In this document: positions 2,538 through 45,465 of the stretch, one piece after another
Layout: the number at the start of each line of letters is the position of its first letter
How positions within the stretch are numbered: the first letter of the stretch is position 1
Assembly: GCF_000015045.1 (NCBI RefSeq)
Contig: NC_008609.1
Location: 186,001 to 250,000 of the forward strand
Origin: Pelobacter propionicus DSM 2379
GTDB taxonomy: Bacteria > Desulfobacterota > Desulfuromonadia > Geobacterales > Pseudopelobacteraceae
Length of the DNA: 64,000 nt
Reading direction: 5' to 3'
Notes under the pieces: generated by a model
What the model was told of the DNA's origin: nothing
The model's input: the letters and a program-made list of their open reading frames with translations, nothing else
Databases searched by the model: none
Program-made: the position numbers and the translations under genes

Positions 2538-3307
2538 AAGACCCGATTCTCGACCATCCGGCTCTGTCGGCCCGATACTTCTATCCCTGGCCGAACCATT
2601 TTGACGAGCCTTTTTTCATCCAAGGGGACGGCTTCCGCCTAGGGTGCCGTTATCGGCATGCCTCCCATGACCTTCCGACCATCATTCACTTCCACGGCAA
2701 TGGCGAAACGGTTGCCGATTACCTCGGTGACTTTGAGGAGCGGATCGTGTCTCTGGGGGCCAATCTGCTCCTGGCCGAATTCCGCGGGTACGGCATGTCA
2801 GACGGGGAACCGGGCTTGGCCACCATGTTGGAGGATGTTCGGCTTATTGTGGAGGCAAGCGGCTCACAGCCTGAGAAGATTATTTTCTTCGGGCGTTCCC
2901 TAGGATCACTCTATGCGGTCCACGCTGCTGCCCTCTACCCACAGGCTGCCGGACTGATCGTCGAAAGCGGACTGGCAGACCCGTTGGAGAGAATCCTTGT
3001 CCGCGTTGAACCTCACCACGTCGGCGCAACCATGGACTCTCTCAGGGAGGCCGTAGCACGGCACCTGAACCAGAAACTAAAAATTTCGTTGTTCAAAGGG
3101 AGGGTACTGATCCTGCACAGCCGGGACGACGATCTTGTGTCCGTCTCCCATGCTGAGAATCTTTACGAATGGGCGAACGATCCGAAGGAGTTGCTGATCT
3201 TTGAGCGGGGGGATCACAACACCATCATGGCAGCCAACGAGAATGCTTATGTCAGGGCGGTGAAGAGGTTTATTGACTCAACTTTCGCAGTTGGCATAAA
3301 AGCGTAA
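2534..3307 (+). CDS. alpha/beta hydrolase with IS-altered C terminus
   Basis: The 257-residue protein shows an oxyanion-hole type HFHGNGE near residue 51, a nucleophile elbow GRSLGS with Ser near 121, an acid in LILHSRDDD near 197 and a C-terminal His in GDHNT near 227. This is the serine-hydrolase triad of a small cytoplasmic esterase or peptidase-like enzyme; the substrate is unknown. The last nine codons lie inside the IS element that begins at 3277. Joining across the 8-bp target duplication restores an ending of Lys-Val-Gln-Pro-stop at 4848-4862, so the ancestral protein was about 252 residues. The catalytic residues are intact, so activity may survive. Confidence 0.8.
3269..3276. repeat. 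IS target site duplication, left copy
   Basis: The 8-bp TTTATTGA sits directly before the left inverted repeat and is repeated exactly at 4839-4846 after the right one. It marks the insertion point inside the hydrolase gene. Confidence 0.9.
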
Positions 3308-4838
3308 CCTGCTGTAATTATAAATAGAATAGCGTCGCAATCTGTATTAATATGGCTTTGCTCCCCAGCAAATCCAATAACGCAGAAAGGCGACGCTATG
3401 AACCGGATTTTACCAGAGATCGCAACAGTTGAGAACCAGATAAACCTGTTCTTTCACAATCATAAACTTGGCGAACTTCTTCGACAAAGCAACGTCAGAA
3501 AAGATAAGGGCGTTTCTCTGGACATTCTGTTCCAGTTTTTGCTGACAATGGCCTTTACCGGAAAGAACCTGTTTCGCTTGTTGAACACGCCTGATACTCC
3601 TGACATACCGCCAGGCATCAGTAAAGACGTTGTCTATCGTTTTTTGAACTGCATCTCTTCCAACTGGCGCAAGTTTCTGTTTCTGCTCAGCACCAGAGTC
3701 ATACTCCAGAAACTTTTACCGTTGACGGACGATGCCACCACCAAGGTACTGATTGCCGACGACACCCTGTATCTCCGTGATCGCAGCAAATGCGTGGAGC
3801 TTTTGGCCCGGGTCCATGACCACAACACCAAGAGATATCACCGGGGCTTCAGAATGCTCACCCTGGGGTGGTCGGATGGCAACAGTTTCGTGCCCATGCT
3901 CTTCTCCATGCTGAGCTCCTCGAAGGAAAAGAACCGCCTTGCCGCAATGCGCACTGACCTCGACAAGCGCACCAATGGCTACAAGCGCCGGCAGGAAAGC
4001 GTGAATAAATCTCCGGATGTGCTGGTGGAACTGGTAAAGGTGGCCATGGCCGCCGGCTCCAAGGCGCGCTATCTGCTGTTTGACAGTTGGTTTGCCTTTC
4101 CCGTCACCATCAGGCGTATCCATGCTTTGGGAATGCACACCATCTGCATGCTCAAGGACTCGAAAACCCGCTATACCTTCCAGGGAGATGGCATGCCCCT
4201 GAAGGAATTGTTTAAATGGGTCCGCAAGCGGCCGGGACGGGCCAAGGTCCTGGCTTCTGTCATGGTGACCATTGGCGAGGATGACAAGGGCAATCCTGTT
4301 GCGGCAAAGATCGTGTTCGTACGAGACAGAAGCAAAAAGAGCTGGCTTGCACTTCTTTCAACCGACACCACGTTGGCGGACGAAGAGATCATCAAGCTCT
4401 ACGGGCGGCGCTGGGATATCGAGGTGTTCTTCAAGATGAGCAAGTCGTTTCTGAATCTGGCAAAAGAGTGTCAGGGCCGCTCCTTCGATGCCTTGGTTGC
4501 CCATACGACGGTGGTGTTCTGCCGCTACATCATGCTGGAACTCGCCAGAAGAACGAATGCCGACCCGCGAACCCTCGGAAACCTGTTCCATGCCACCTGC
4601 GATGAACTCAGGCAAACGAGCTTCGTCGAAGCGCTGGCATTACTACTGAAGTTGCTTGAACAGTCACTGAACAAACTTGCTGGATTTACCAAGGAACTGA
4701 TGCTGCAACTGGTTGAGCAGTTTGTTGCACAACTGCCATTGCCTTTTAAGGCAAGGATGTTACTTTCTGCCTTGGCAACCCAGTAAACCGACAGCATCTC
4801 AGGCGGTTACTAACAAATAGCCTGCTGCGAAAGTTGAG
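3277..4838 (+). mobile_element. complete IS4-family insertion sequence, 1562 bp
   Basis: The ends are a perfect 14-bp inverted repeat: CTCAACTTTCGCAG at 3277-3290 and its reverse complement at 4825-4838. Symmetry continues weakly inward. The element carries one transposase gene and is flanked by identical 8-bp duplications. Intact ends, an intact transposase and a perfect target duplication indicate a recent, probably still functional insertion. It interrupts the last codons of the hydrolase gene. Confidence 0.92.
3398..4786 (+). CDS. IS4-family DDE transposase
   Basis: The 462-residue protein has the IS4 YREK signature (Tyr-x2-Arg-x3-Glu-x6-Lys, in YGRRWDIEVFFKMSK near residue 334-348), with the Glu as the third catalytic acid. 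Candidate first and second Asp residues are in LIADDTLYL near 121 and LLFDSWF near 228. It catalyses cut-and-paste transposition of the surrounding element. An AAAGGCG-type ribosome site lies just upstream. It is full length and shows no frameshift. Confidence 0.9.
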   Translation: MNRILPEIATVENQINLFFHNHKLGELLRQSNVRKDKGVSLDILFQFLLTMAFTGKNLFRLLNTPDTPDIPPGISKDVVYRFLNCISSNWRKFLFLLSTRVILQKLLPLTDDATTKVLIADDTLYLRDRSKCVELLARVHDHNTKRYHRGFRMLTLGWSDGNSFVPMLFSMLSSSKEKNRLAAMRTDLDKRTNGYKRRQESVNKSPDVLVELVKVAMAAGSKARYLLFDSWFAFPVTIRRIHALGMHTICMLKDSKTRYTFQGDGMPLKELFKWVRKRPGRAKVLASVMVTIGEDDKGNPVAAKIVFVRDRSKKSWLALLSTDTTLADEEIIKLYGRRWDIEVFFKMSKSFLNLAKECQGRSFDALVAHTTVVFCRYIMLELARRTNADPRTLGNLFHATCDELRQTSFVEALALLLKLLEQSLNKLAGFTKELMLQLVEQFVAQLPLPFKARMLLSALATQ

Positions 4839-4862
4839 TTTATTGATAAGGTACAGCCATGA
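4839..4862 (+). other. right IS target duplication and severed 3' end of the hydrolase gene
   Basis: TTTATTGA at 4839-4846 is the right copy of the target duplication. Read in the hydrolase frame, the sequence continues Phe-Ile-Asp-Lys-Val-Gln-Pro and a TGA at 4860-4862, which is the natural end of the interrupted gene. The remaining bases to 4920 show no feature beyond the convergent gene ends. Confidence 0.85.
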
Positions 4863-4920: not shown

Positions 4921-5637
4921 TCATCTGCAATCGGTTATCTGCCCTTTGGAACTGCCAAGGATTCTGACGGGGACGATACATTCAGCAGAATCGTTTTTCG
5001 GACTGTTTACCAGTGACGAAACAGGATACGCACTCAGTAGTTCTGAAGAGCAAGGCCGGCAAAACTCCTGCAGTACTGCAACATCTGTAAGCTTCGGATT
5101 GAGCCAGGCCGCTTGACACTCATGACTGAGAATCACCGGCATCCTCTCATGGATTGGTGCCATCAGTTCATTGGCGCTGGTTGTCAGGATGGAACAGGAC
5201 TCGATAACCTGTCCATCGCTCCCCTGCCAATGCTCCCATAACCCCGCAATCGACACCGGACTTCCATCAGCCATCCGGAAATACCATGGCTGTTTTCGTT
5301 TCCCATCCTGCCGCTGCCATTCATAAAACCCTCCCGTCGGAATGATGCAGCGCCGACGCTTGAAAGCAGACCTGAATGACGGTTTTTCCGCGGCGGTCTC
5401 CGACCGGGCATTGATCAGGCTATTGCCGATCGCGATATCTTTCGCCCAGGACGGAATGAGTCCCCATCTGACGAAAGCAAGCTCCCGGCCACCATCCGCA
5501 TCAACTTTGACAATTGGTATGGTCTGGGATGGAGTAACGTTATATCTCGGATTTAGTTCGCGCTCGATGTCCCTGATGATCCCGTAAATCTCAGTGATCA
5601 TTTCCGGTGACAGATCAATGACCAGACGACCGCACAT
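4921..5637 (-). CDS. SOS response-associated peptidase (SRAP/HMCES-YedK family)
   Basis: The 238-residue protein has all SRAP hallmarks: Met-Cys2 at the N terminus (the Cys becomes residue 1 and crosslinks abasic sites), Asn76 in NARSET, Glu106 in GGFYEW and His163 in APIHERMPVIL. Family members form a stable thiazolidine link to abasic sites in single-stranded DNA and shield them. It follows the Y-family polymerase by three bases with its ribosome site AGGTAA overlapping the polymerase stop, so it is the last gene of the lexA-led SOS operon. Such a protein suits an element that transfers as ssDNA. Confidence 0.9.
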   Translation of the reverse strand: MCGRLVIDLSPEMITEIYGIIRDIERELNPRYNVTPSQTIPIVKVDADGGRELAFVRWGLIPSWAKDIAIGNSLINARSETAAEKPSFRSAFKRRRCIIPTGGFYEWQRQDGKRKQPWYFRMADGSPVSIAGLWEHWQGSDGQVIESCSILTTSANELMAPIHERMPVILSHECQAAWLNPKLTDVAVLQEFCRPCSSELLSAYPVSSLVNSPKNDSAECIVPVRILGSSKGQITDCR

Positions 5638-5640
5638 GGC

Positions 5641-6873
5641 TTACCTCACTTGCACGTTCCTGATTCCCTCCGGCTTCCAAGCCGGCGAGATTACGTGTGA
5701 ACCCTTCTCATCATTGTTGCCCAAAAGACTTCCGAACGTCACGGTAAAATCGCCGAACTTGTCATTGACCGTATCCATGGCGTTGACCATAAAAGCCTTC
5801 CGGCGCTCGTCTTCGAAAAGGGGCAACTGTTCGCGCTGGTAACAGAGGTTGGTGATCCTTACCCCCAGCAGGCGTACAGGCTGTTCCAGTTCGATGCTAT
5901 CCAGGATCTTCACGACGCCCTGGTAGATCTCATCGCTCTGGTTGACGTGCTGAGACAGGGTGCCCTGCTTGCCGAAGGTACTGAAGTCAGCGTAGCGGAT
6001 GGTCAGGTGGACCGTTTTCCCTGCCACTCCGTAGCGGCGGGCCCGCCTCCCTACCATCTCCGAGAGCTGCAACAGATATCGCAGAATCTCGCTCCGACTG
6101 CTGATATCCTTTTTAAGTGTCATGGAATGCCCAACCGACTTCACCGCATCGGCGTCTTCAGCCGGTATGACCGGTGAGTTGTCGATGCCAAGCCCCATCT
6201 GCTTCAGCCGGCTGCCGACAATGCCGAATTTCCTGGTCAGACGCCCTTCATCACAACGCCCCAACTCACCACACGTATAGATTCCCATCATGTTGAGATG
6301 CCGCTCCATCTTCTTACCGATGCCGCAAAGCTCCTTGATCGGCATGGTCTCCAGCACCCGGCTGACGTTTTCCGGTGCGATAACTGTCAAACCGTCTGGT
6401 TTTTTCATTTCCGAAGCAAGTTTCGCGAGGAGTTTATTCGGGGCAATGCCGATGGAACAGGTAATATCAAATTGGTGCCGGATGCGGGCCTTGAGAAGAT
6501 AGGCGATATTCTCGGCGCTAGTGAACAGCGACATGGAATGGGTGACATCCATGAACGCCTCGTCAATCGAAAAAACCTCGACCAGAGGGGTGTAGTCCAG
6601 CATCATTTTCATGATCTGTGCTGATGTATGGATATATTTCCGGTTATCCGCCGGTACCATGATGACGTCACGGCACAGCCTTCTGGCCTCGTGCAGCATC
6701 ATGCCGGTCTTGATCCCGAATTTCCGGGCCTCGTAGGAGGCGGTGAGGATCACGGTTCTCTGCTGTGAACCGGTGACAACAACCGGCTTCCCCTTGAGGT
6801 CAGGGTTGGCGGACTGCTCGACGGAGGCGAAAAAACTGTTCATGTCGAGATGCATGACAACCCGGCTGCCCAT
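5641..6873 (-). CDS. dinB: Y-family DNA polymerase (Pol IV / DinB type)
   Basis: The 410-residue translesion polymerase has the first catalytic Asp in MHLDMNSFFASVE near residue 10, the Asp-Glu pair in VFSIDEAFMD near 104-105, and the helix-hairpin-helix and little-finger regions to the C terminus. It copies past damaged bases at low fidelity. The ATG at 6873 overlaps the upstream stop by one base (TGATG); a GTG one codon earlier is possible. It sits between a small gene and SRAP in the lexA operon, so it should be damage inducible. Confidence 0.88.
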   Translation of the reverse strand: MGSRVVMHLDMNSFFASVEQSANPDLKGKPVVVTGSQQRTVILTASYEARKFGIKTGMMLHEARRLCRDVIMVPADNRKYIHTSAQIMKMMLDYTPLVEVFSIDEAFMDVTHSMSLFTSAENIAYLLKARIRHQFDITCSIGIAPNKLLAKLASEMKKPDGLTVIAPENVSRVLETMPIKELCGIGKKMERHLNMMGIYTCGELGRCDEGRLTRKFGIVGSRLKQMGLGIDNSPVIPAEDADAVKSVGHSMTLKKDISSRSEILRYLLQLSEMVGRRARRYGVAGKTVHLTIRYADFSTFGKQGTLSQHVNQSDEIYQGVVKILDSIELEQPVRLLGVRITNLCYQREQLPLFEDERRKAFMVNAMDTVNDKFGDFTVTFGSLLGNNDEKGSHVISPAWKPEGIRNVQVR

Positions 6874-7118
6874 CACGTCACCTCGATGCCGTTCAGGAGC
6901 CAGCTCTGGTCCAACGTATTGTAGACCAGGTCATAGAGAGCATCCCCGTCAGTCACGGCGAAATGCAGGAGTGTGGCTGCACCAACTTGCTCCTTCCAGT
7001 GGTACGTTGTCTCCAGGATGGTGTGCTTCCGGTTGTGCCAGTCGAACCAGACCGGCCTGATCTGTCGGCCTGGGGTAAAGATCGTGGCGATCCGTATCTG
7101 TTCCTTGATCCGCTCCAC
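6873..7118 (-). CDS. hypothetical protein in the lexA-dinB operon, 81 aa
   Basis: The gene starts with GTG three bases after the lexA stop, with GGAGTAAG as ribosome site, and its stop overlaps the polymerase start. The acidic 81-residue protein has several aromatic residues and no recognised catalytic motif. Its place between a LexA-type repressor and a polymerase is comparable to accessory factors of mutagenic cassettes, but no homology to ImuA or UmuD is visible. Function unknown. Confidence 0.65.
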   Translation of the reverse strand: MERIKEQIRIATIFTPGRQIRPVWFDWHNRKHTILETTYHWKEQVGAATLLHFAVTDGDALYDLVYNTLDQSWLLNGIEVT

Positions 7119-7121
7119 GTC

Positions 7122-7724
7122 TTACTCCAACTGTCGATAGATGCCAATTACCTTGCCGACGATCGACACGTCTTTATCCGGACCAACAAATATCGGAGCC
7201 ATATTTGGGTTGGCCGGTTGCAGGCGGATACGATTCTGCTCGCGATGGAACCATTTCAGGGTCGCCTCGCCATCCACCATGACGACCACAGTATCACGAT
7301 TATCAGCCACTGGCTGGGGGCGTACCAAAGCCAGGTCCCCATCAAAGATCCCGGCGCCGATCATCGAGTCACCCTTGACCCGCAATAGAAAGCAGCCATC
7401 CCCCTTCACCTGTTCCTGATCCACGGCAAAGAACCCTTGGATGTCCTCGACAGCAGGTTGAAGGTGCCCGGCCCGTACCGTTCCGACAATCGGCAGCGAT
7501 ATCGACCGCACCTCCTGTGAGGTCAATACAATCCTCCGTGAAGTACCCGCTCGCTTTATCCACCCCTTCTTCTCCAGGGCATCAAGATGCCGATTCACTC
7601 CGAAGGTGCTGGTAATCCCCAGATGCGCCGCAATGTCCCGCCAAGTGGGTGGGAAACTATTGGTTTTAATAAAGCTGGTGATGAAATCCAGAACCTTTTG
7701 CTGTCGGTCAGTAAGGGGGATCAC
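7122..7724 (-). CDS. lexA: LexA-type SOS repressor
   Basis: The 200-residue LexA has an N-terminal winged helix (LTDRQQKVLDF to about residue 65), an Ala-Gly autocleavage site in TVRAGHLQ, the catalytic Ser in VKGDSMIGAGI and the Lys in EATLKWF. RecA filaments trigger self-cleavage and derepression. A GTG start at 7724 is chosen because it has GTGGAGG about 8 bases upstream and gives the usual family length. The longer open frame would run through the promoter and operator. The gene heads a four-gene SOS operon and has a palindrome at its own promoter, which implies autoregulation. Confidence 0.9.
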   Translation of the reverse strand: MIPLTDRQQKVLDFITSFIKTNSFPPTWRDIAAHLGITSTFGVNRHLDALEKKGWIKRAGTSRRIVLTSQEVRSISLPIVGTVRAGHLQPAVEDIQGFFAVDQEQVKGDGCFLLRVKGDSMIGAGIFDGDLALVRPQPVADNRDTVVVMVDGEATLKWFHREQNRIRLQPANPNMAPIFVGPDKDVSIVGKVIGIYRQLE

Positions 7725-7738
7725 AGTTGCGCCTCCAC

Positions 7739-7787
7739 ATAGTGTCCATATGAACACTATATACCCTTGCCCACACCTTCTTGTCAA
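7739..7787 (-). promoter_or_regulatory. lexA promoter with palindromic operator
   Basis: On the minus strand, TTGACA (7782-7787) and TATATA (7758-7763) are separated by 18 bases, a near-consensus sigma-70 promoter. Abutting the -10 is a near-perfect palindrome at 7739-7760 with core AGTGTCCATATGAACACT, well placed for a LexA dimer to block transcription. The site is not the classical CTG-N10-CAG box. It lies in the divergent gap before the transfer operon, so it might affect both directions. Confidence 0.75.
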
Positions 7788-7834
7788 GACGCTGCACCTT
7801 CCCCCCTGCAAGATTATCAGTCAGGAGGAATTGA

Positions 7835-8341
7835 ATGCGCCGATTACCGGGAATCTGCCTGTTCATCATCAGTCTTGCCTGTCTGCCGGTGCATGCTGGT
7901 GCCTTCTGCTTCGAGGAAGCCGGAAGCCTCTACGGCATCTCACCCCAACTGCTCTGGAGCATTGCCAAGACGGAAAGCAACTTCAATCCCGGGGCAATTA
8001 ACCGGAACAGCAACGGCACCTACGATTACGGCCTCATGCAAATCAATTCGAGTTGGGCCAAGCGACTTGGCAAGACCTGGAATGATTTGGGCGAGCCATG
8101 CACGAACGTGAAAGTGGGAGCCTGGGTCCTGGCCCAGTGCATCCAGGACTATGGTTACACCTGGCGAGCTGTCGGTTGTTACAACTCGCGTACTCCGTCG
8201 AAAGGTGACCGTTATGCCGGCAAGGTCTATCGGGTTCTTGTGGGGTACGCCAGGCCGCAGGCAATGACGATCGTTGCCGCCAACAGCACACCCAGGATCG
8301 AATCACCATGGGATGAGGTGTTCGGCAATGCTGTCCGCTGA
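7835..8341 (+). CDS. lytic transglycosylase, VirB1/IagB-like
   Basis: The 168-residue protein has a signal peptide (residues 1 to about 22) and an SLT fold: catalytic Glu in [14 protein letters not shown] near 46, YDYGLMQIN near 68-76 and a late GCYNSR motif. It opens peptidoglycan locally so that the secretion channel can be assembled. Its ribosome site is CAGGAGGAA. It is the first gene of transfer block 1 and overlaps the next gene by 14 bases. Confidence 0.88.
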
Positions 8342-9038
8342 TCTTCTCCACAAATACGGATTGCCGGAGGACGAGATAGTCGATGCTGTTGAATGCGCTG
8401 TGGCAAGGACACTGATGGCAGCTTTTAAAAGGACGGTTACAGTCCGGGCAGAAGGTGAACTGGAAATCATTGCCTATCCCAAACTGGGACACCCGGTCGA
8501 AATGCAGTTGAAGGACATTCCCAAGAAGCTCCGCAGGCATATCATCCACAGTGTCGAAGCGGAACTGCAAACACGCCAGATCCTGCTGGAAGCAAAAAAA
8601 CTGCAGGAACTTCAGGGGAGGGTTTTTTGTGGGTCCGTAGGGCGTATCGGCTCCCGAGGGACATTGCACGTAACCCTGGAAATTGACGACTTACTTAAGC
8701 CGCTGATCCTGTTCGGGGAATGCCCGTTACGCTATCAGCCGCCGCATGAACGTTCCCGCTATCGCATAGGTGAGCAGCGCAGCTTCCTGGTGACAAGCGT
8801 GCGTCCCGTCATGGTGGGCGGCGACATCGCAAAGGTTCGACTTATTCTTAACCGGACATCCCGTGCCTTGCCGGCTTTACTGCTTCAGGACTTGACCGGC
8901 ATTACCGGGATCAAATGCCGACGGCGTATCGCCGGAGGGTTCAGTGAAGTTGTTACCCCGGTTCGGATACCAAAAACATCGATTAATACAGTCGGAAAGG
9001 AGTTGAGGGAACATGTTCAAGTCCTCATCGCCCCATAA
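8328..9038 (+). CDS. NusA-like RNA-binding protein in the transfer operon
   Basis: The ATG at 8328 has GAGGTG upstream and gives 236 residues. The N terminus ([21 protein letters not shown], written here only as a pattern of paired helices) resembles the NusA N-terminal domain. A middle part, with a [16 protein letters not shown] segment, resembles the end of the NusA S1 domain. The following [18 protein letters not shown] and an [10 protein letters not shown]-type segment resemble the first KH module. The AR and second KH modules are absent. NusA binds RNA polymerase and nascent RNA and tunes pausing and termination. A homologue in a conjugation operon could act as an operon-specific antiterminator. 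The family call rests on pattern only. Confidence 0.5.
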
Positions 9039-10386
9039 AACCACCAACCCGGAATTCATGACCTCCATCGGCACCGGAGTCCAGATGGAGAGACCGACAC
9101 GGATAGTTCCGATTTCGATCCCTGATGAATACCGAAAACGGCACATGTTCGTATTTGGCACTACAGGGGTCGGCAAAACGCGACTCTGCGAGAACCTTAT
9201 TGAGCAGGACATCATGAAAGGCAACAGCGTGGTCTACTTCGACCCCAAAGGTGACCAGCAGATCTTCACCAAGATTTTCGAGGTCGCCCGTAAGGCAGAG
9301 AGACTCAAGGATTTGATGCTGGTAACGCCGATTTTCCCTGAATACTCAGCAGTCATCGATCCTATGGCCTATTACTTCATGCCGGACGAACTCGTCGGGC
9401 ATATTGTTTCAGGCATCCAGGGCGGACGTGAGCCATTCTACCGCAACATTGCAAAGGAAATCACTACTGCCATCATCTCGGCCAACATCATCATCGCCGA
9501 TTGGGAAAAACGTCTTCCCAGGCAAAACATGGATGCTATCAGACAAAGCATACGCCGCTCATCATTGAGCAGCACAATGGGGCTACTGCAGGAAATCAAG
9601 AGACCCGAGGCGCTGCTAAACGCCGGCATGATCCAGGATATCCTTGAATCTCCCCAAGAGTATTACTCGAAGGTGTCTTCAACATTACGCACCTGCTTGA
9701 TGGAGCTTTCCTCCGGCAACATCGGCAAGATTATCGGCCAGGCCGACAGCAACCGTTTCATCAGCCGACTTGAACGAAAGAAAGGGGTAATCATGGTCGT
9801 GCACACCGGTACCATGATTACCAGGGAGGCAGCCACAACACTTGGCAAAGTCCTCCTGTCGATGATCCAGTCCTTCATCGGCAGGGTCTATCTCTCTGAC
9901 AAGCAGAAAGTATTCCCGCCGCTGTCCATCTACATAGACGAGGCCCAGAGCCTGTTCTACCAGGGCATTGAGGACCTTTTCGCGAAGGCTGGGTCAGCAG
10001 ACGTGATGGTGCATGCCTTCGCCCAGTCCGTGAACCAAATATATGCCGCCATTGGCGAGGAATACGGTAAATCGATCCTCGACAACACCAACACCAAGAT
10101 CTTCATGCGCTGTTCTGATGCTGAAACATCCGAGTACGTCGTACGGCATTTCGGCGTGCGCAACGTGCTGACCGGAATTTTCGGGTCCAACCAGGTCACT
10201 ACCCGTGAAGTGGAACAGGACATTTTGAAAGTGCAGGATATTCTGGGGCTGCAGCCAAGGGAATTCTACATGCTGACTTACTCCGGTAGGTACAAGGGGG
10301 TGACTCGTGATGCCAGAGACCCGCAGTTGAAGATAGTCTTCCCGTCGGCGCCATCTTCCGTAACCATGAGCAGAGGGGCCGCATGA
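9013..10386 (+). CDS. type IV coupling protein, TraD/TraG-like ATPase
   Basis: The 457-residue hexameric-ATPase family protein has a P-loop GTTGVGKTR near residue 50, FDPKGD after it, Walker B SIYIDEAQSLF near 306 and an AFAQSVNQI glutamine motif near 335. Coupling proteins bring the relaxase-DNA complex to the secretion channel. No N-terminal membrane helices are visible, so it would be soluble or anchored through a partner. A GGAGTTGAGGG ribosome site precedes the ATG. It overlaps the NusA-like gene by 26 bases and the HD protein gene by four. Confidence 0.85.
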   Translation: MFKSSSPHKTTNPEFMTSIGTGVQMERPTRIVPISIPDEYRKRHMFVFGTTGVGKTRLCENLIEQDIMKGNSVVYFDPKGDQQIFTKIFEVARKAERLKDLMLVTPIFPEYSAVIDPMAYYFMPDELVGHIVSGIQGGREPFYRNIAKEITTAIISANIIIADWEKRLPRQNMDAIRQSIRRSSLSSTMGLLQEIKRPEALLNAGMIQDILESPQEYYSKVSSTLRTCLMELSSGNIGKIIGQADSNRFISRLERKKGVIMVVHTGTMITREAATTLGKVLLSMIQSFIGRVYLSDKQKVFPPLSIYIDEAQSLFYQGIEDLFAKAGSADVMVHAFAQSVNQIYAAIGEEYGKSILDNTNTKIFMRCSDAETSEYVVRHFGVRNVLTGIFGSNQVTTREVEQDILKVQDILGLQPREFYMLTYSGRYKGVTRDARDPQLKIVFPSAPSSVTMSRGAA

Positions 10387-34719: not shown

Positions 34720-35199
34720 TCAGGAGGTCAACGCTGCGTTCTGAACCCAGCTTTGAACGGCTTCCCGCTTCCGAAAGTCTGTCAATTCCCGTCGCCAGTG
34801 CATCATAGCGCAGTCATCGGAGCAATAGGATACAACCCGAATGCGCGGATCGTCTTCCTCGGTGATCCTCACATGAATCATGCCGTCCTTCTGCCGGGGT
34901 GAGGTACAGGCTTCACAATGTTGAACCGCCGGGCCATCGAGTCCGTCATCATTGCTGACTGTCAGGAACCGAGTGCCCGATACTTTGATGAAGGTGCGGT
35001 GCCAATAGGCATCTCCTTCGACAACCAGGATATTGCGTAGGTGATGGCATGACAATTCCTGGGTATAGCTTCTGTTACAAAAAGGGCAAGTCCCACGATC
35101 GAAGCGGTCGCTTATCCCGGAAATCATGGTCAGCACCCCAGGGGTGAGATCCTTATGATCACAGACAACGGGTTTGCCTTCGTGGTCCCAGAGAATCAT
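34720..35199 (-). CDS. hypothetical Cys-rich protein downstream of the recombinase
   Basis: The 159-residue protein has CPFCNRSYTQELSCHH, CEACTSPRQ and CSDDCAMMHW, which could bind two zinc ions. Its ATG overlaps the integrase stop (ATGA), so it is translationally coupled to the recombinase gene. No catalytic motif is seen. It may be an accessory factor of the recombinase, an inference from coupling only. Confidence 0.6.
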   Translation of the reverse strand: MILWDHEGKPVVCDHKDLTPGVLTMISGISDRFDRGTCPFCNRSYTQELSCHHLRNILVVEGDAYWHRTFIKVSGTRFLTVSNDDGLDGPAVQHCEACTSPRQKDGMIHVRITEEDDPRIRVVSYCSDDCAMMHWRRELTDFRKREAVQSWVQNAALTS

Positions 35200-36284
35200 G
35201 GCGACTCCTCTGTCTCCTGGTCAGGAGCGGATGGTATGCAAGAATCACCAACCGGCGGTGTCGGTGCCGTAGTGATTGCCAGAGGAATTTTCCTGGTGAA
35301 GCGTTTATGCTCCCGGCCACTGGCGGCATAGATGGCGCTGGTGCTGATGTCCTCATGGCGTAACGTATCCTGAACAGCCCGGATGTCCTTGGTGACATCG
35401 TATAGCATTGTGCCGCAGGTGTGCCGCAGAGCATGGCAGGAAACCCGTTTCCGTTTCAGGCCGGCTTTGCTCAGGTAACCGTCAATGACACTATTGAGGC
35501 CGATGCGCGATATCCGGCCCCTGCCTCGGCCATTCTTGCGTACGCTGAGAAACATTGGCGTAACGAACGCTTGCCGGTTATGGATGGTGGTTTCCTCGAC
35601 GGTTACCTCACCCCTGGCCGCAAGGTAGGCCCGGATGGCGGCCACAGTATCTTCCCGGGGATAGATATAACCATCTTTGCGCTTGCCGTGGACCAGAATG
35701 CGCACACCACCCTCAACGTCTTCGATGTCTTCGACGTTGGCCCGTTTGATTTCGACACGGCGGAGCCCTTCGAGCAGCATAAGGGCTATGATGGCCCGGT
35801 CGCGCAATCCCTTGATGCTGCCCAGTTCGGGAAGGTGCATGATCAGCAGTTCCGCCTGGCCGGCGGTAAGGTGCTTTTGCTCAGATTTAGCTTCCCGTGC
35901 GACAGGGGGGCGAACATTTGCCGCCGGATTGATGGTGATCAACCCCCGGTTCATGGCGACCTGGTAAAATCGTCTGATGACGGTCAGCTTTACCGCGATT
36001 GACGATGCTTTCATGCCGGCCTGGATGAGTTCATGGCGAAAGCTCTCCACATCGGCCTGGGTCATGGCAGCCGGAGTGATGCCACGGGCGTTACACCAGC
36101 GGAGCCAATGGTTGAGGTGGGACGTGTAGGTTTTGATCGTGTCTTCGCGTGGATCACCCAGGGCAACTTCACGTTCCAGCCAGTTGCGTACTGCGGCTTC
36201 AAGATCCGCTGGCAGGTTGTCCGGAATCTGGCTGGAGATCAGTGCCGAATGGGGGCCACCGGTCGGGATGATATCATTATTCAT
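35196..36284 (-). CDS. tyrosine recombinase (XerC/D-like integrase)
   Basis: The 362-residue protein has a SAM-like N-terminal core-binding domain (about 30-115). The catalytic domain has Arg in LLEGLRRVEI, Lys in HGKRKDG, HALRH, a His in LRHEDIS and Tyr in SAIYAASG. It performs site-specific recombination: integration, excision or multimer resolution. It stands mid-cargo, not beside a tRNA, and no att repeats were recognised. It could resolve plasmid dimers or be the relic of a nested island. It overlaps both neighbouring genes. Confidence 0.88.
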   Translation of the reverse strand: MNNDIIPTGGPHSALISSQIPDNLPADLEAAVRNWLEREVALGDPREDTIKTYTSHLNHWLRWCNARGITPAAMTQADVESFRHELIQAGMKASSIAVKLTVIRRFYQVAMNRGLITINPAANVRPPVAREAKSEQKHLTAGQAELLIMHLPELGSIKGLRDRAIIALMLLEGLRRVEIKRANVEDIEDVEGGVRILVHGKRKDGYIYPREDTVAAIRAYLAARGEVTVEETTIHNRQAFVTPMFLSVRKNGRGRGRISRIGLNSVIDGYLSKAGLKRKRVSCHALRHTCGTMLYDVTKDIRAVQDTLRHEDISTSAIYAASGREHKRFTRKIPLAITTAPTPPVGDSCIPSAPDQETEESP

Positions 36285-36816: not shown

Positions 36817-37083
36817 TCATCCATAGTGACTCGTTTCCTGGTAACCTTTTCGGGTCTTCTCTCGGTAAAGACGGTTCGCCTCCTTGATGGCATCCTCGAT
36901 ATGGACATACCACTCCTCTTTACAGCGAACCCGATACCCGATCCTTCCCCAGGCCCTGAACAGCACGACATTAAATAGTCCCTGGCAAATCTCCAGGAAG
37001 TAAATACGTCGGCGATTCATCGCAGGGTTGATCAGGACGAGTTGGCACCGGCAATATCCGGTGAACCTCGAAGTGACTGGCAT
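36817..37083 (-). CDS. WGR-domain protein, 88 aa
   Basis: After a short basic N terminus the protein is a single WGR domain: RRIYFLEICQGLFNVVLF, then RAWGRIG with the diagnostic Trp-Gly-Arg, then EDAIKEANRLYREKTRKGY. WGR modules bind DNA ends or protein partners. It is distinct from the WGR-like protein at 19.9 kb. It is isolated, with about 600 bases lacking a supported gene upstream. Confidence 0.75.
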   Translation of the reverse strand: MPVTSRFTGYCRCQLVLINPAMNRRRIYFLEICQGLFNVVLFRAWGRIGYRVRCKEEWYVHIEDAIKEANRLYREKTRKGYQETSHYG

Positions 37084-37684
37084 TAACGTCTCTGTGGTAG
37101 CAGGAATTTATTGCTTCTATTATGTATATCTATTGGGGGGGAAGGTGAGGAGGTGCTTTTCTTGAAAATATTTTGAACGGCGAGATTTCAGAGGCACACT
37201 GCGTCAACTACAATGGTTTGCTATCATAATATGACACCGGCTTTTATCTATTGGTAGAACACAATCTTTACAGAACCAAAGGTTTGAACCTGCTGTTTCA
37301 GCCTGTGAATAGGCCCAGAATGCTATCTTTTCGGTTGCTTCCTGGTTATGGAGAATACTGTGGGAGTCAAATTCATGAGCAAGCGACTTACCATACAGGT
37401 GGTTCCTTTTCTGCCAATTATTCAGATGACAAGGTGCGGCAAGAAAATCTCTCTTGCTCCTATTGCATGATGAATGGGCAAGAACAAAATTGTGTCCGAG
37501 GTCTAGCGGATAGCGTGATTCAATCTCGAACCAGTTTGTAATCTTTTACCAAACGATGGTAAGGATTTTCGGGAAATGTAGGAATGCTGGATCTCAAAAT
37601 TAAAATCAAGCAATCAGTGAATCGAATTTGAGAACTGATCATGAAACATGATCATATATATTCGAGAAAAAATGGCCGAATTTT
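37084..37684. other. AT-rich intergenic region, no gene supported
   Basis: The 600 bases hold a G7 tract near 37135 and several short frames without ribosome sites. The plus-strand frame at 37251-37541 begins with TTG, has no ribosome site and no recognisable protein pattern. No terminator or repeat stands out. Confidence 0.4.
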
Positions 37685-40598: not shown

Positions 40599-43574
40599 TC
40601 AACACCCAGCCATCACATCATCAAGATTCCGAGCCTTGATATACTTCGCCGGATTTTCACCTACAGCCAAAGCCATAAAATGCGCTTCGCCGCATCTGAT
40701 CTTTGCACTTTCCTTATCGCGAAGATCATCTGTAAAGAGGCTGCTCTTGGTTTCGACAACGAAATACAGCCGTTCCACGCCGTCCTTTTCGATCAGCACG
40801 GCCCAATCGGGGTTGTAACTGCCCAGCGGAGTCGGCACCTTGAACCAGCCCGGAAGTTTGGCATAGACCTTTACCGCTTCGTTCTTCTCCATCTGTTCGG
40901 CAAAGGTTTTCTCAACACCGGAAGAATCATAAACGACATGCTCATACACCGACTTTTCCGTCTCAAGCATGTTCTTCAGATAGCCGGTCAACTCTTCCTG
41001 CTCGAACAGCTCCTGAGCGTAGTAGTGCTCATCCCCCAGACGCTGGTAACGGATGCCGTCCACTAGGGCCAAACGCTTGGTTCGATTGATCGTCTCCGAA
41101 GTCAGTTCAATAAATTGCTGCGGGTTCCGCTTGAAATCATTCAACCGGCCGCTATCGGTAAGAATCTGTACAATGCTGCGCCGGGTCAGCTGGGTCTTGT
41201 CCTGAAGATCCGACAGCAGATCCGGCAATTCAATATCGTGCTCATCGATGGTGATGGGGGCAGAAACCGAGGTCTCCTGTGCATCGATGCCTGATTTGCC
41301 GATGGCAAGCTCAGCTTTGCGCCATTGCAGGCGGGTCTTGGCTATTGGCGGACAGTCTCTGATTGCCTCGGCGCATTTGGTGAGCAATGCGTCGTTGTCG
41401 AAGTGTACCCTGTAGGTGGTTTTATGCTTGATCCGGTTCCAGAGTGCCTTGAACTCTTCACTGTTCAACACCGCCTGCCGGGTCTTGACCGGTGTGCGCT
41501 CATCGGCGTTCTTGATTTCCAGCCTGCCGGAGAGTTTGCGCAAGACTTCCTTCACCTGCGGCAAGTGAGCCTTGAACTCATCCGGCAGCGTGAGGGTGCC
41601 GTCCTTGAGGGCCTTCCTGAGGCTGTCCTGAACCTTGCCCTTGTGGTCTACAAAACCAGCCTGTTTCAGGTGACTCCAGATCGCCTCGGACTGTTCCACT
41701 CCCAGCGGGGTCACTTTACCCGTCGGGTCGGTCACCGATATTGCCGCGAACTGGTGTTTTTCTACAATACCGAATCGGATGCCGGTATCATCTTCAATCT
41801 CTTTCTGCAGATTGTCCGCAAACTGCTGATAACTCTCGGTGGCAATGACCGTCAGGGTATTAAGGTCGAAGCCTCGCAGCCGCTCACCCTGCTGATTTAC
41901 GCAAAGACGCAGACCCCGGCCGATGGTCTGGCGGCGCTCCCGTTCGGTCCCGATCTCACGCAGGGTGCAAATCTGGAACACGTTGGGGTTATCCCATCCC
42001 TCGCGCAGGGCGGAGTGTGAAAAGATGAATTTGAGCTTGGTCTCAAAATCCAGCAGCTTTTCCTTCTCCTTCATGATCAGGTTATAGGCGCGTTCGGCGT
42101 TGTCCCGGCTCCCTTGGTTGTTTTCGGCGGTCTCCGTCCAGGCACCTTTCTTGTCTATGGAGAAATAGCCGTTATGCACATCGCCTGCCTCGGTCTCCAG
42201 ATCCACATCATTGAAGAGGGTCTGGTAGTCAGGGTGTTTGATGAGCCGGCGGTACTCCTCCTCGAATATCAGGGCGTACTTCCCTTTCACCTGGTTACCG
42301 TCGGCGTCGTATTTACGGTAATGCTCGACGCTGTCGATGAAGAACAGGGAGAGCACCTTAACCCCACGGGTCTTGAGCCGCAGTTCTTTGTCCAGGTGTT
42401 CCTTGATGGTGCGCCGGATCATCTGGCGTTTGAGCGCATCCTCGTCCACACCGCCGATTGCCTGCCCCGGCTTCAACCATTCCTCACCACCCGGAACCCG
42501 TATCTCCACCAGTTCCTGGCCCTTGGCGCAGCGGATCTCGCCGATGCTGCAGTTCGCATAGATGGCGCGATTGGTCACAAACTCAAGGGCATCACCGTCC
42601 TGCACGTTGACTTCCGCACGGCTTACCTGTCCGCCACGCTGTACGTCCAGTTCCACCCTGGCGGTTATGCTGCCCCGTTTGTTGGAAACCGACAGCAGAC
42701 GCACGAAAGCCTTGTTGTTGCCACCTTCAACGCTGGCCGAGGCGACCTCAATCTGTTTCACAAGTTTCTGTTCATAAGCATCCACGGCGTCCAGGCGGTA
42801 CAGCATGTGATGCTTGTCCACATGGGTTGCCGAATACCGCAAGGTGCAGAGCGGATTCATGGCCCCCAGAGCCTCCTTGCCCCGACCTTCCAGACCACCA
42901 TCAACACTCTGCGGCTCATCAACGATGATGATTGGCGATGTCGCTCGGATCAGATCAATAGGTTTTTCCCCGCCGGTCTTCTCGCTATCCTTGTAGAGAT
43001 TGTTGACATCCTTCTTGTTGATGGCGCCAACCGTCACCACCATGATCTGTACGTTGGGGCTGGTGGCGAAGTTCCGGACTTGACCCAGCTTGGAGGAATC
43101 ATACTGGAAGAATTCGTATCCCTTGGCGGCGGGATACAGTCCCTCAAAATGATCCCTGGTGATCTCCAGGGTCTTGTTGGTTCCCTCCTTGATCGCTACC
43201 GAGGGGACCACAATCACGAACTTGGTGAACCCGTAGCGTTTGTTCAGCTCGAAAATCGTCCGCAAATAGACATAGGTCTTGCCGGTGCCGGTCTCCATCT
43301 CTACGGTAAAATCTCCCGAAGAAAGGGAATCCGATGGCCTCAAGCCGTTGCGAAGCTGGATATCACGAAGGTTGGCGAGCAATTCGTCTTCAAGAAGCTG
43401 CAGACGGTTGCCGATCCCCAGGTCGTTCTGAGCAAAGGCCAGCAGGTGTTGTTCGCCGGTGCCGCTGGTAACAGTGAACTCGGTACGACAGATTTCCTGG
43501 CCACGAAACAGGTCGGCAACCGCCTCAATGGCGGCATGCTGGTAGTCAAGATTCGGTTCAAAGTGGAGTTTCAT
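40599..43574 (-). CDS. res: type III restriction enzyme, Res subunit
   Basis: The 991-residue protein has a SF2 helicase core with Walker A TGTGKT near 95-100, a DEAD-like IVDEPQSVDGG, SATHVDK and a late QTIGRGLRL arginine motif. The C-terminal PD-(D/E)XK nuclease has YNPDWAVL near 920 and VVETKS near 940. Res translocates from two Mod-recognised sites and cleaves when they collide or communicate. It starts 10 bases after the Mod stop. All core motifs are intact. Confidence 0.92.
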   Translation of the reverse strand: MKLHFEPNLDYQHAAIEAVADLFRGQEICRTEFTVTSGTGEQHLLAFAQNDLGIGNRLQLLEDELLANLRDIQLRNGLRPSDSLSSGDFTVEMETGTGKTYVYLRTIFELNKRYGFTKFVIVVPSVAIKEGTNKTLEITRDHFEGLYPAAKGYEFFQYDSSKLGQVRNFATSPNVQIMVVTVGAINKKDVNNLYKDSEKTGGEKPIDLIRATSPIIIVDEPQSVDGGLEGRGKEALGAMNPLCTLRYSATHVDKHHMLYRLDAVDAYEQKLVKQIEVASASVEGGNNKAFVRLLSVSNKRGSITARVELDVQRGGQVSRAEVNVQDGDALEFVTNRAIYANCSIGEIRCAKGQELVEIRVPGGEEWLKPGQAIGGVDEDALKRQMIRRTIKEHLDKELRLKTRGVKVLSLFFIDSVEHYRKYDADGNQVKGKYALIFEEEYRRLIKHPDYQTLFNDVDLETEAGDVHNGYFSIDKKGAWTETAENNQGSRDNAERAYNLIMKEKEKLLDFETKLKFIFSHSALREGWDNPNVFQICTLREIGTERERRQTIGRGLRLCVNQQGERLRGFDLNTLTVIATESYQQFADNLQKEIEDDTGIRFGIVEKHQFAAISVTDPTGKVTPLGVEQSEAIWSHLKQAGFVDHKGKVQDSLRKALKDGTLTLPDEFKAHLPQVKEVLRKLSGRLEIKNADERTPVKTRQAVLNSEEFKALWNRIKHKTTYRVHFDNDALLTKCAEAIRDCPPIAKTRLQWRKAELAIGKSGIDAQETSVSAPITIDEHDIELPDLLSDLQDKTQLTRRSIVQILTDSGRLNDFKRNPQQFIELTSETINRTKRLALVDGIRYQRLGDEHYYAQELFEQEELTGYLKNMLETEKSVYEHVVYDSSGVEKTFAEQMEKNEAVKVYAKLPGWFKVPTPLGSYNPDWAVLIEKDGVERLYFVVETKSSLFTDDLRDKESAKIRCGEAHFMALAVGENPAKYIKARNLDDVMAGC

Positions 43575-43584
43575 ATTGATAACC

Positions 43585-45465
43585 TCACAGGCTCCTCACA
43601 TCATCAAGGCCTTGCTGCTGGAGGATGGCGGTGAGGTTCGTCTTGGCCACGTCGTCGGCAAAGGCGCTGTCCCTGAAGACCAGTCGGGTATCCACGGCAG
43701 GTTTGAGCTCGTTGTGCCATGCCACGATTCCCTGAGCCAACGGCTCAATGGCATCGCGATCGATGGTGTCCGACAGGCACACCAGTAATGCTCCAGCACC
43801 AATGCTGTGCACGGTTTTACCGGCAATCGGTTTCTGTTCAATGGGAACAGTCAGGTCGAGGCCCAGTTTCAGGAGCAGTTCGTAAAGGATGTCCTGTTCG
43901 GAACGACCGGAAACAATATGCTCCGCGTGATCAAGGAGGGTTTGCTCCAGGTCGTCACGGTTTGGCTCCCAGGCTCGAATGTTGGAAGAATCAAGCTTGA
44001 ATACGCGGAAACCGAGGTCCCCAGCAAAAAGAGTGTTATCGTCTTTGACTTTTTTAGCGGCTCGTCTTAGGCGTTCTTTTGTTAGTTCGGCAATTGTGCG
44101 AGGCTTGCCGATCTGGTCGCAGAAATTGGCGGCGGTTTTCTGATCTTTGTTTTCCGGGTCGAGAGGTTCGGGCAGTTGGACAAGTACGTAGCGGCGATTT
44201 CCACCGTCTGCTGAATTTTGAGCCATGACGGCGTGTCCAGTAGTTCCAGAACCTGCAAAAAAATCTACAACTATTTCGTTATTACCAGGGTTTGTTATTG
44301 ATTGGATGAGTGTCTTTAGCAATCGAGTCGGTTTGACAGTGTCAAAACCATGATCGTTACCAAGGATCTCGTTTAGCTCTGCTTTCCCAGCTTCTGAAGT
44401 TGATGACCAGTCTGATTCCATGAAGCAGTAAAAAGGATCATGTTCAGCACCCTCTTCGTCCTCATAATAACGTTTAAAAGGTGTTCCATCCCGAAATTCA
44501 AGATAACCTTCTATATTTAAACGTTTAATTTCTTCTTCTCCTCCTTGCCAACGTTGACCGTCGGGAGGAGCATATCCATCAATTTCAAAAGACATTGTAT
44601 TCCTAAAATTAGCCCCTCTATTGGATTTCAGAATTGTCGTCAACCGATACTTACGACCGTTGATTTCATGAGGGTAACTTCGCACACCCCCAGTATATAG
44701 AGGTTGAAATTTGCCCTCTTTATCGCTTTTTTGATAAATAACAACATACTCTGTTTCGCCTTGAGGCCGGTATTTAGCTTCGCCAATATTGACTGGCTTT
44801 ACCCGAGCTTTCCATGTCACATTACCAACAAAATTTTCTTCTCCAAATATTTCATCACACAACCGCAAAACATGTGCTAATTCACGATAATTTATTGAAA
44901 TAAAGAGAACTCCATCTTCGCTTAATAGATTTCTTGCCAGTTTCAATCGTGGATACACCATATTCAGCCAATCCGTGTGAAAGCGGCCGCTGGCTTCGGT
45001 ATTACTACTGATCTTTGCGCCCCCCTCTACTTGGCCAGTTAATTCCAAATAGTTCTTTATGTTGTCCTGGAAGTTGTCTGGATACACAAAATCATTGCCT
45101 GTGTTGTAGGGCGGGTCGATGTAGATCAGCTTTACCTTGCCGGCATAGCTCTTCTGCAGGAGCTTTAGCACTTCCAGGTTATCACCTTCAATCATCAGGT
45201 TCTGTGTGGTATCCCAATCCACACTCTCTTCCGGGCTAGGGCGAAGAGTTCCTGTTGACGGAGTAAGCGCCAATTGCCGAGCACGACGTTTTCCATGCCA
45301 GTTCAGACCGTATTTCTCTTCTCGTTCATCTATGTCGCCACCAAGAAGCTGTTTCAAGGTGTCAAAATCAATTTTCCCCTCGGTGAGAGCTTCGGGGAAA
45401 AGAGCTTTCAGTTGGTCGATATTATCCGCGACGACATCAGCGGACTGGCCGTTCAATTTTTCCAT
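43585..45465 (-). CDS. mod: type III DNA methyltransferase, Mod subunit
   Basis: The 626-residue beta-class adenine methyltransferase has motif IV DPPYNTG at 117-123, which precedes motif I VDFFAGSGTTGHAV near 400. The region between them carries a long target-recognition segment. Mod recognises the asymmetric site and modifies adenine on one strand, using S-adenosylmethionine. CAGGAG precedes the ATG. The region encoding the target-recognition domain is AT-richer (about 44.3-45.0 kb), as expected for an exchangeable specificity domain. Confidence 0.92.
   Translation of the reverse strand: MEKLNGQSADVVADNIDQLKALFPEALTEGKIDFDTLKQLLGGDIDEREEKYGLNWHGKRRARQLALTPSTGTLRPSPEESVDWDTTQNLMIEGDNLEVLKLLQKSYAGKVKLIYIDPPYNTGNDFVYPDNFQDNIKNYLELTGQVEGGAKISSNTEASGRFHTDWLNMVYPRLKLARNLLSEDGVLFISINYRELAHVLRLCDEIFGEENFVGNVTWKARVKPVNIGEAKYRPQGETEYVVIYQKSDKEGKFQPLYTGGVRSYPHEINGRKYRLTTILKSNRGANFRNTMSFEIDGYAPPDGQRWQGGEEEIKRLNIEGYLEFRDGTPFKRYYEDEEGAEHDPFYCFMESDWSSTSEAGKAELNEILGNDHGFDTVKPTRLLKTLIQSITNPGNNEIVVDFFAGSGTTGHAVMAQNSADGGNRRYVLVQLPEPLDPENKDQKTAANFCDQIGKPRTIAELTKERLRRAAKKVKDDNTLFAGDLGFRVFKLDSSNIRAWEPNRDDLEQTLLDHAEHIVSGRSEQDILYELLLKLGLDLTVPIEQKPIAGKTVHSIGAGALLVCLSDTIDRDAIEPLAQGIVAWHNELKPAVDTRLVFRDSAFADDVAKTNLTAILQQQGLDDVRSL

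Follow-up and report, generated by a model that had tools for sequence, protein, structure and literature searches.

Does a single LexA operator switch both mutagenesis and conjugation? The question is raised by a stretch of 64,000 nucleotides from Pelobacter propionicus DSM 2379 (C3:186001-250000, hereafter the window), in which an SOS cassette headed by lexA lies back to back with the transfer genes of a mobile element. The gap from lexA to slt (7835), 110 bp long, holds a palindrome. The first-pass annotation took this arrangement to mean that DNA damage could induce mutagenesis and possibly transfer together, as SetR does in SXT. Our analysis points elsewhere, namely to an autonomous, self-regulated SOS/translesion module that probably rides on the element, with transfer being controlled separately. 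As contig C3 has 4.0 Mb, the element appears to be chromosomal, and judged by its gene content it is conjugative: besides the first transfer genes listed below, TraG, TraU, TrbC and TraN are encoded in the window, and TraC, TraK, TraE and DsbC beyond it.

The features at the divergent junction and around it are:
4921-5637, minus strand: SRAP gene (Pfam PF02586, 255.8 bits; Cys2, start MCGR)
5641-6876, minus strand: dinB, Y-family polymerase (Pfam IMS and IMS_C; NCBIfam)
6873-7118, minus strand: gene of 81 amino acids (aa), earlier orf81, here a putative standalone ImuB-C
7122-7724, minus strand: lexA, GTG start behind GGAGG (Pfam LexA_DNA_bind and Peptidase_S24)
7740-7759, no strand: predicted LexA operator, TAGTGTCCATATGAACACTA
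7758-7787, minus strand: lexA promoter assigned by eye, TTGACA (7787-7782), an 18-nt spacer and TATATA (7763-7758)
7797-7816, plus strand: C-box 1, putative leader/promoter motif in front of the slt operon
7835-8341, plus strand: slt, lytic transglycosylase, first transfer gene (Pfam SLT)
8331-9038, plus strand: transfer gene 2 (orf254; 235 aa from its likely start), without a Pfam family, marker of the element family
9013-10386, plus strand: TraD-like coupling protein (TIGR03743, 151 bits, below the cut-off of 366)

An SOS cassette with its own predicted operator

Arranged head to tail, all four cassette genes are on the minus strand and, together with their Pfam matches, bear out the earlier reading of lexA-orf81-dinB-SRAP as one operon; the broader view of a mobile SOS/translesion cassette with a LexA of its own is likewise supported. 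The LexA reaches 192 bits against TIGR00498 (cut-off 111), its LexA helix-turn-helix (HTH) and S24 domains lie above the curated cut-offs, and the motifs RAG, GDSM and ATLK, with the cleavage dipeptide Ala-Gly and the Ser/Lys dyad, are visible in the alignment; we take these residues to have the roles they have in cleavable LexA. By eye, dinB shows a clamp-type motif, QLPLF, and a tail resembling RecA-NT; SRAP is the HMCES/YedK family. Compared with the relative L011, all four genes show a ratio of nonsynonymous to synonymous divergence (dN/dS) of 0.03-0.08, with dS near saturation, which speaks for purifying selection. LexA self-cleavage, polymerase activity and the shielding of abasic sites are predicted from family membership. 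The C-terminal tail of SRAP (region of 4921) is in a different frame from that in L011, L012 and L014, which share an acidic tail.

The palindrome lies exactly at 7741-7758, its reverse complement differing at two positions, and, as had been stated earlier, it overlaps the lexA promoter (TATATA, 7763-7758) within the intergenic space common to lexA and the transfer operon. A consensus promoter scan of 7600-7900 listed none, the scanner demanding T at position 6 of the -10 element. The chance expectation for the palindrome in the window is 0.01 at up to 3 mismatches. A position-weight scan of the plus strand of the window returned one site at 28.6, the next best reaching 7.5 and the maximum in 20 shuffled windows 18.5; with this single site, a role as an element-wide regulon site was rejected. 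Searching the rest of the element and the chromosome, a check suggested by the first-pass annotation, revealed no further copy in the window or in the host genome (4.24 Mb) at up to 2 mismatches; at up to 3, the sole other host site has 3 mismatches and the backward control gave 3 matches per strand.

Across 277 genomes of the class, the pattern TAGTG-N2-CA-N2-WG-N2-CACTA was found as one site each in 12 genomes, with 4 single hits for the backward pattern. All 12 sites stand 10-16 nt before a lexA-type gene (a chimera in genome G261), and three of them (G008, G009, G139) belong to lexA-81-aa-dinB sets, with no slt in the fetched 1.5 kb flank and no match to the tra marker. Ten distinct operator/helix pairs divide perfectly: STFGV (seven pairs) goes with the inner half-sites TTC, CTC and TCC, and SPSGV (three pairs) with AAC, TAC and CAC. 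The chance of such a 3-of-10 split is 1 in 120, an optimistic figure given the kinship of the genes.

The Geobacter LexA motif is GGTT-N10-AACC (PMC8565304, in the part available to us); the window operator has the same layout with the outer bases changed, AGTG-N10-CACT, and the relative L016 has GGTTATCATTTGACAACC. An operator placed over its own promoter and seemingly matched to its own HTH is best read as the site at which LexA would regulate itself. Upstream of the two further lexA genes in the host stand repeats unlike this operator, and the module is therefore expected to be orthogonal to, and independent of, the SOS response of the host.

Probable separate control of the transfer operon

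Towards slt, 37 bp from the palindrome, lies a second motif, termed here the C-box (consensus CCTKCCCCCC-N4-AGATWW). Before slt it reads CCTTCCCCCC-N4-AGATTA, and close versions occur in relatives showing no lexA there. In the host, ACCTTCCCCCCNNNNAGATWW occurs four times without mismatch, each time in the range C3:193796-263894, and these copies precede slt, the WGR-integrase genes, the operon ompA-dsbC-traE-traK-traB-traC and a ParM-like gene. The features involved, apart from C-box 1, are:
35196-36284, minus strand: tyrosine integrase behind C-box 2
36817-37083, minus strand: WGR-domain protein, first gene behind C-box 2
37126-37145, minus strand: C-box 2, before the WGR-orf119-tyrosine integrase genes
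C3:259405-259425 and C3:263874-263894 (locus L071): the other two C-boxes of the host

In the class genomes, CCTKCCCCCCNNNNAGATWW gave 85 matches, summed over per-genome counts, in 31 of 277, and the backward pattern 2. All 19 genomes with at least two C-boxes have a homologue of P0001, a sigma-like protein encoded by the element and described below (40 of 277 genomes overall), and 17 of the 19 have the tra marker. The transfer operon is thus probably wired separately from lexA, via its own C-box.

Several observations weigh against this reading. With 2 mismatches allowed, two further C-box-like sites appear elsewhere in the host, and three in the backward control. Exact C-boxes are absent from 16 of the 36 transfer-marker genomes, and 9 of the 31 C-box genomes have neither the marker nor the sigma-like gene. 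The 48 C-box contexts, collapsed to 42, show no conserved -35 upstream, contrary to a reading of the C-box as a classical two-hexamer sigma site. In a crude test on the 40 contexts kept after a filter, the C-box stands before an open reading frame (ORF) led by a ribosome-binding site in 22, and in 8 on the reverse strand, so not all copies are promoter-like. On the side of the palindrome, the operator/helix pairs are phylogenetically non-independent, SPSGV being one group; lexA-slt adjacency and the operator-C-box spacing of 37-38 bp are constant in the 7 elements measured (L042 and L043, with a degenerate C-box, were left out of the 9), which could mean joint control; and G261 keeps the operator while ImuB-C, dinB and SRAP are absent from its fetched locus, so the operator may serve more than repair genes. 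An RNA hairpin hiding the ribosome site was also considered: pairing of the C-run with a G-run is possible, by eye, in some slt and parM leaders, and not at C-box 2.

Joint control would mean that LexA at the palindrome represses in both directions, damage inducing the transfer operon along with the polymerase cassette. The shared 110-bp gap, the operator and spacing kept in relatives, the TATATA beside the palindrome, which reads alike on both strands, and the retention in G261 are all in line with it. However, the slt leader is also present in relatives with no lexA beside slt, and it is intact in G274, where lexA, cassette and operator are missing at this place. No palindrome of this kind accompanies the C-boxes of the integrase, parM and second tra operons, the operator travels with lexA, with slt lacking from the fetched flank at 3 of 12 sites, and the palindrome centre is estimated to be about 70 bp upstream of the predicted slt start site. 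We therefore regard co-repression as quite improbable, and the palindrome is not supported as a transfer switch, slt having its own leader, common to three other operons.

The same geometry allows the opposite coupling, in which RNA polymerase would be contested between the lexA promoter and that of slt; SOS firing would then dampen transfer, and LexA repression would free the slt promoter. Between the lexA -35 (7787) and the C-box (7797) there are 9 bp, and the gap geometry is constant in the 7 elements. This is geometry alone, however, with a predicted slt start site, and compact gaps are common in mobile elements, which makes competition unlikely in our view. Separate wiring of the two promoters is the reading followed below.

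Conservation and exchange among related elements

Transfer gene 2 was matched in 36 of the 277 genomes at 43 places, 30 of which became loci; the lexA status of the other 13 is not included (the match on host contig C1 was seen later, in L074), and loci L010-L014 and L028, which apparently duplicate G genomes, are not counted twice. Among the 10 closest transfer loci (L034-L043, window included), lexA is divergent from slt in 9, one having a chimeric lexA. In this chimera, that of G261 (L134:8479-9180), the first ~77 LexA residues, the DNA-binding domain, are fused in frame to a pyridoxamine-oxidase/Nim-like domain, and the cleavage residues of the RAG/GDSM/ATLK type are lacking.

Synonymous distances of the window to L011, L012, L014, G261 and G274 amount to 0.06-0.34 in transfer gene 2 and beyond, and to 0.52-0.76 in slt and the genes to its left. 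Judging from this step, there is a recombination point near 8340, and repressor, operator and slt would have moved together.

A rival reading holds that the cassette is a mere hitch-hiker, which came to lie beside tra by chance in a single lineage of elements and is of use only in repairing the host or the incoming element. No lexA was found upstream of the tra genes in 20 more distant loci, although four of these (L044, L046, L049, L051) hold less than 300 bp upstream of slt. On plasmid pSD of Geobacter anodireducens (L138, CP014964.1, 2600-5460), the genes stand in the order SRAP-lexA-ImuB-C-dinB at a distance of ~17 kb from slt, both dinB and SRAP having matches in two frames, and the host itself has two other lexA-81-aa-dinB sets. 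On the other hand, adjacency and purifying selection are kept across diverged elements, and we consider chance placement somewhat unlikely.

A candidate transfer switch beyond the window

If the C-box is the transfer signal, it would need a reader. The element encodes P0001 (L071:15238-15897), with P0002 and P0003 alongside; its profile matches are to sigma region 4 and an extracytoplasmic function (ECF) sigma factor, although they stay below the curated cut-offs (TIGR02937 40.9 vs 42.9; Sigma70_r4 22.8 vs 24.1), which counts against the assignment. Almost all of the 50 listed Foldseek hits are chains of RNA polymerase/sigma entries, the best E value being 3e-3 and none falling below 1e-3, for a model with a predicted local distance difference test (pLDDT) score of 67. 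We infer that P0001 reads the C-box, the alternatives being P0002 and P0003. No paper on an element- or plasmid-encoded sigma factor in conjugation was among those listed by the literature searches.

Outside the window, at C3:267893-268654 (L071:17893-18657), lies the gene of P0005, a CI-type repressor with HTH and S24 domains. It is divergent from XRE-trfA-P0001 and is followed by a serine recombinase gene. A search for S24 proteins in the host gave three LexAs, one partial protein elsewhere and P0005. Of the 277 genomes, 11 have a homologue at 70% identity or more, which is found in all of the 10 closest elements except G160. In 14 of the 21 genomes having both genes, the CI and sigma-like genes are divergent neighbours within about 2.2 kb. 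CI-type HTH genes also directly precede slt on contig C1 (202 kb) of the host and on pSD, neither giving an S24 match at E 0.001.

The C-box itself precedes trfA-P0001 in 5 of 6 further P0001 loci fetched (L127-L130, L136, L137), and the genomes of these five have no P0005 match; no such C-box is found in L071, L131 and L133. As far as seen, the six come from genomes with no lexA beside slt (in G163 no slt was seen, and G205 is near a contig end).

With CI HTH and S24 domains, adjacent and divergent to a candidate activator operon, P0005 has the layout expected of a SetR-type repressor. For the window LexA, the operator was found in the host only before lexA, and none at the promoter of the transfer activator. 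SOS control of transfer, if any, would thus more plausibly run through P0005 in a SetR-like manner. The proposal that damage induces mutagenesis and transfer together, as with SetR, is not supported for LexA and the palindrome; co-induction could still come about through two repressors, and the SetR-like role fits P0005 better.

Comparison with known systems

The 81-aa protein had been proposed as a possible new polymerase accessory factor. Its ORF has no Pfam family at E 0.001 and its model (all-beta, beta-barrel-like, pLDDT 94) no match in the Protein Data Bank (PDB) at the same threshold. W73 near the C-terminus is invariant in the alignment of 11 homologues, and DUF6504, which we take to be the ImuB C-terminal family, matches 6 of these 11 (E up to 10, best 1.8e-4), the window copy only weakly (E 0.063, 14 bits vs a cut-off of 24.2). 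A conserved C-terminal Trp and a beta-barrel without close PDB relatives are traits of ImuB-C (PMC3765255, PMC12926913, in the parts available), and the small gene stands between lexA and an active-looking polY, the operon position of PMC6511836. The order lexA-81-aa-dinB also occurs in L019 (Clostridia) and in L020 and L021 (Omnitrophota), both further lexA genes of the host have an 81-aa homologue and dinB behind them, and contig C1 holds a fourth host homologue. Rather than a new factor, a candidacy rejected on W73, the all-beta model, the weak DUF6504 matches and the published operons, the protein fits standalone ImuB-C, described in 2013 and 2019.

The cassette is accordingly a known operon, here carried on a conjugative element. 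For Geobacter sulfurreducens, lexA-imuB-C-polY is reported to be induced by damage and to form a single transcription unit (Timinskas and Venclovas 2019, PMC6511836, citing Jara 2003; from the part available). The first three genes, their order and the active-looking Y-family polymerase are shared, whereas the window cassette lies on a conjugative element, has SRAP added and shows AGTG-N10-CACT instead of GGTT-N10-AACC (PMC8565304). The accessible text of Aravind 2013 (PMC3765255) describes standalone ImuB-C with DinB, LexA and SRAP, and also SRAP with a RecD-like helicase, to be compared with recD2 at 351-2537 in the window, although the word "conjugative" is absent from its main text. The SXT/R391 SetR-SetCD system (PMC4344509, part available) is alike in that an S24-type repressor stands over an element activator that fires several operons via one motif, which would here be the CI protein, the sigma-like gene and the C-box; it differs in that our candidate activator is sigma-like, the C-box abuts a possible -10 while the SXT motif is just upstream of the -35, and the counterpart of SetR is not LexA. 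The literature searched held no description of a lexA-ImuB-C-dinB-SRAP operon on a conjugative element, nor did the available part of the Geobacter KN400 genome paper mention lexA.

Among mobile elements, an SOS-regulated Y-family polymerase is likewise carried by conjugative elements with rumAB and mucAB. These translesion cassettes rely on the LexA of the host, whereas the window cassette brings its own.

Two neighbouring regions are recorded here as well. An insertion sequence (3276-4839) with 20-nt inverted repeats and a DDE transposase lies between abh and SRAP, its left end falling inside the end of the abh ORF. At 40599-45465, an N6_N4_Mtase DNA methylase gene stands beside a large gene that by eye resembles a restriction helicase, possibly a defence cargo.

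A model for the element

In the scenario that we propose, the element LexA would bind the palindrome over its own promoter and keep the operon off, and RecA-stimulated self-cleavage would turn it on, supplying a Y-family polymerase, its ImuB-C partner and an abasic-site protein. Because the operator is distinct from the host lexA repeats, the module would be briefly derepressed upon entry into a recipient that lacks this LexA. C-boxes stand before the slt operon and three others and would probably be read with help from the element sigma-like protein; the operon of the latter is divergent from the gene of the CI-type S24 repressor. Lying back to back, the lexA and slt promoters may be close enough for mutual exclusion. 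What the sequence itself shows are the genes, the operator and its partition by helix type, the spread of the C-box and the CI and sigma-like genes; binding, cleavage, induction, orthogonality and the roles of the sigma-like protein and the C-box are deduced from these.

More tentatively, and as a possibility rather than an expectation, the element could use a private promoter code, in which the C-box and the sigma-like factor drive integrase, both tra operons and partition. In the lineage with lexA, the operon of the factor would answer to the CI-type S24 repressor, and in relatives with no lexA there to a C-box of its own. Next to it would lie an orthogonal LexA module with a promoter overlapping that of tra, so that one element would have two separate damage sensors, for repair and for transfer.

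If this wiring is true, the element carries its own SOS system that ignores the host LexA, with transfer placed under another damage sensor. The C-box, the sigma-like gene and the CI repressor would then form a directly testable model of how conjugative elements of Geobacter relatives are switched on.

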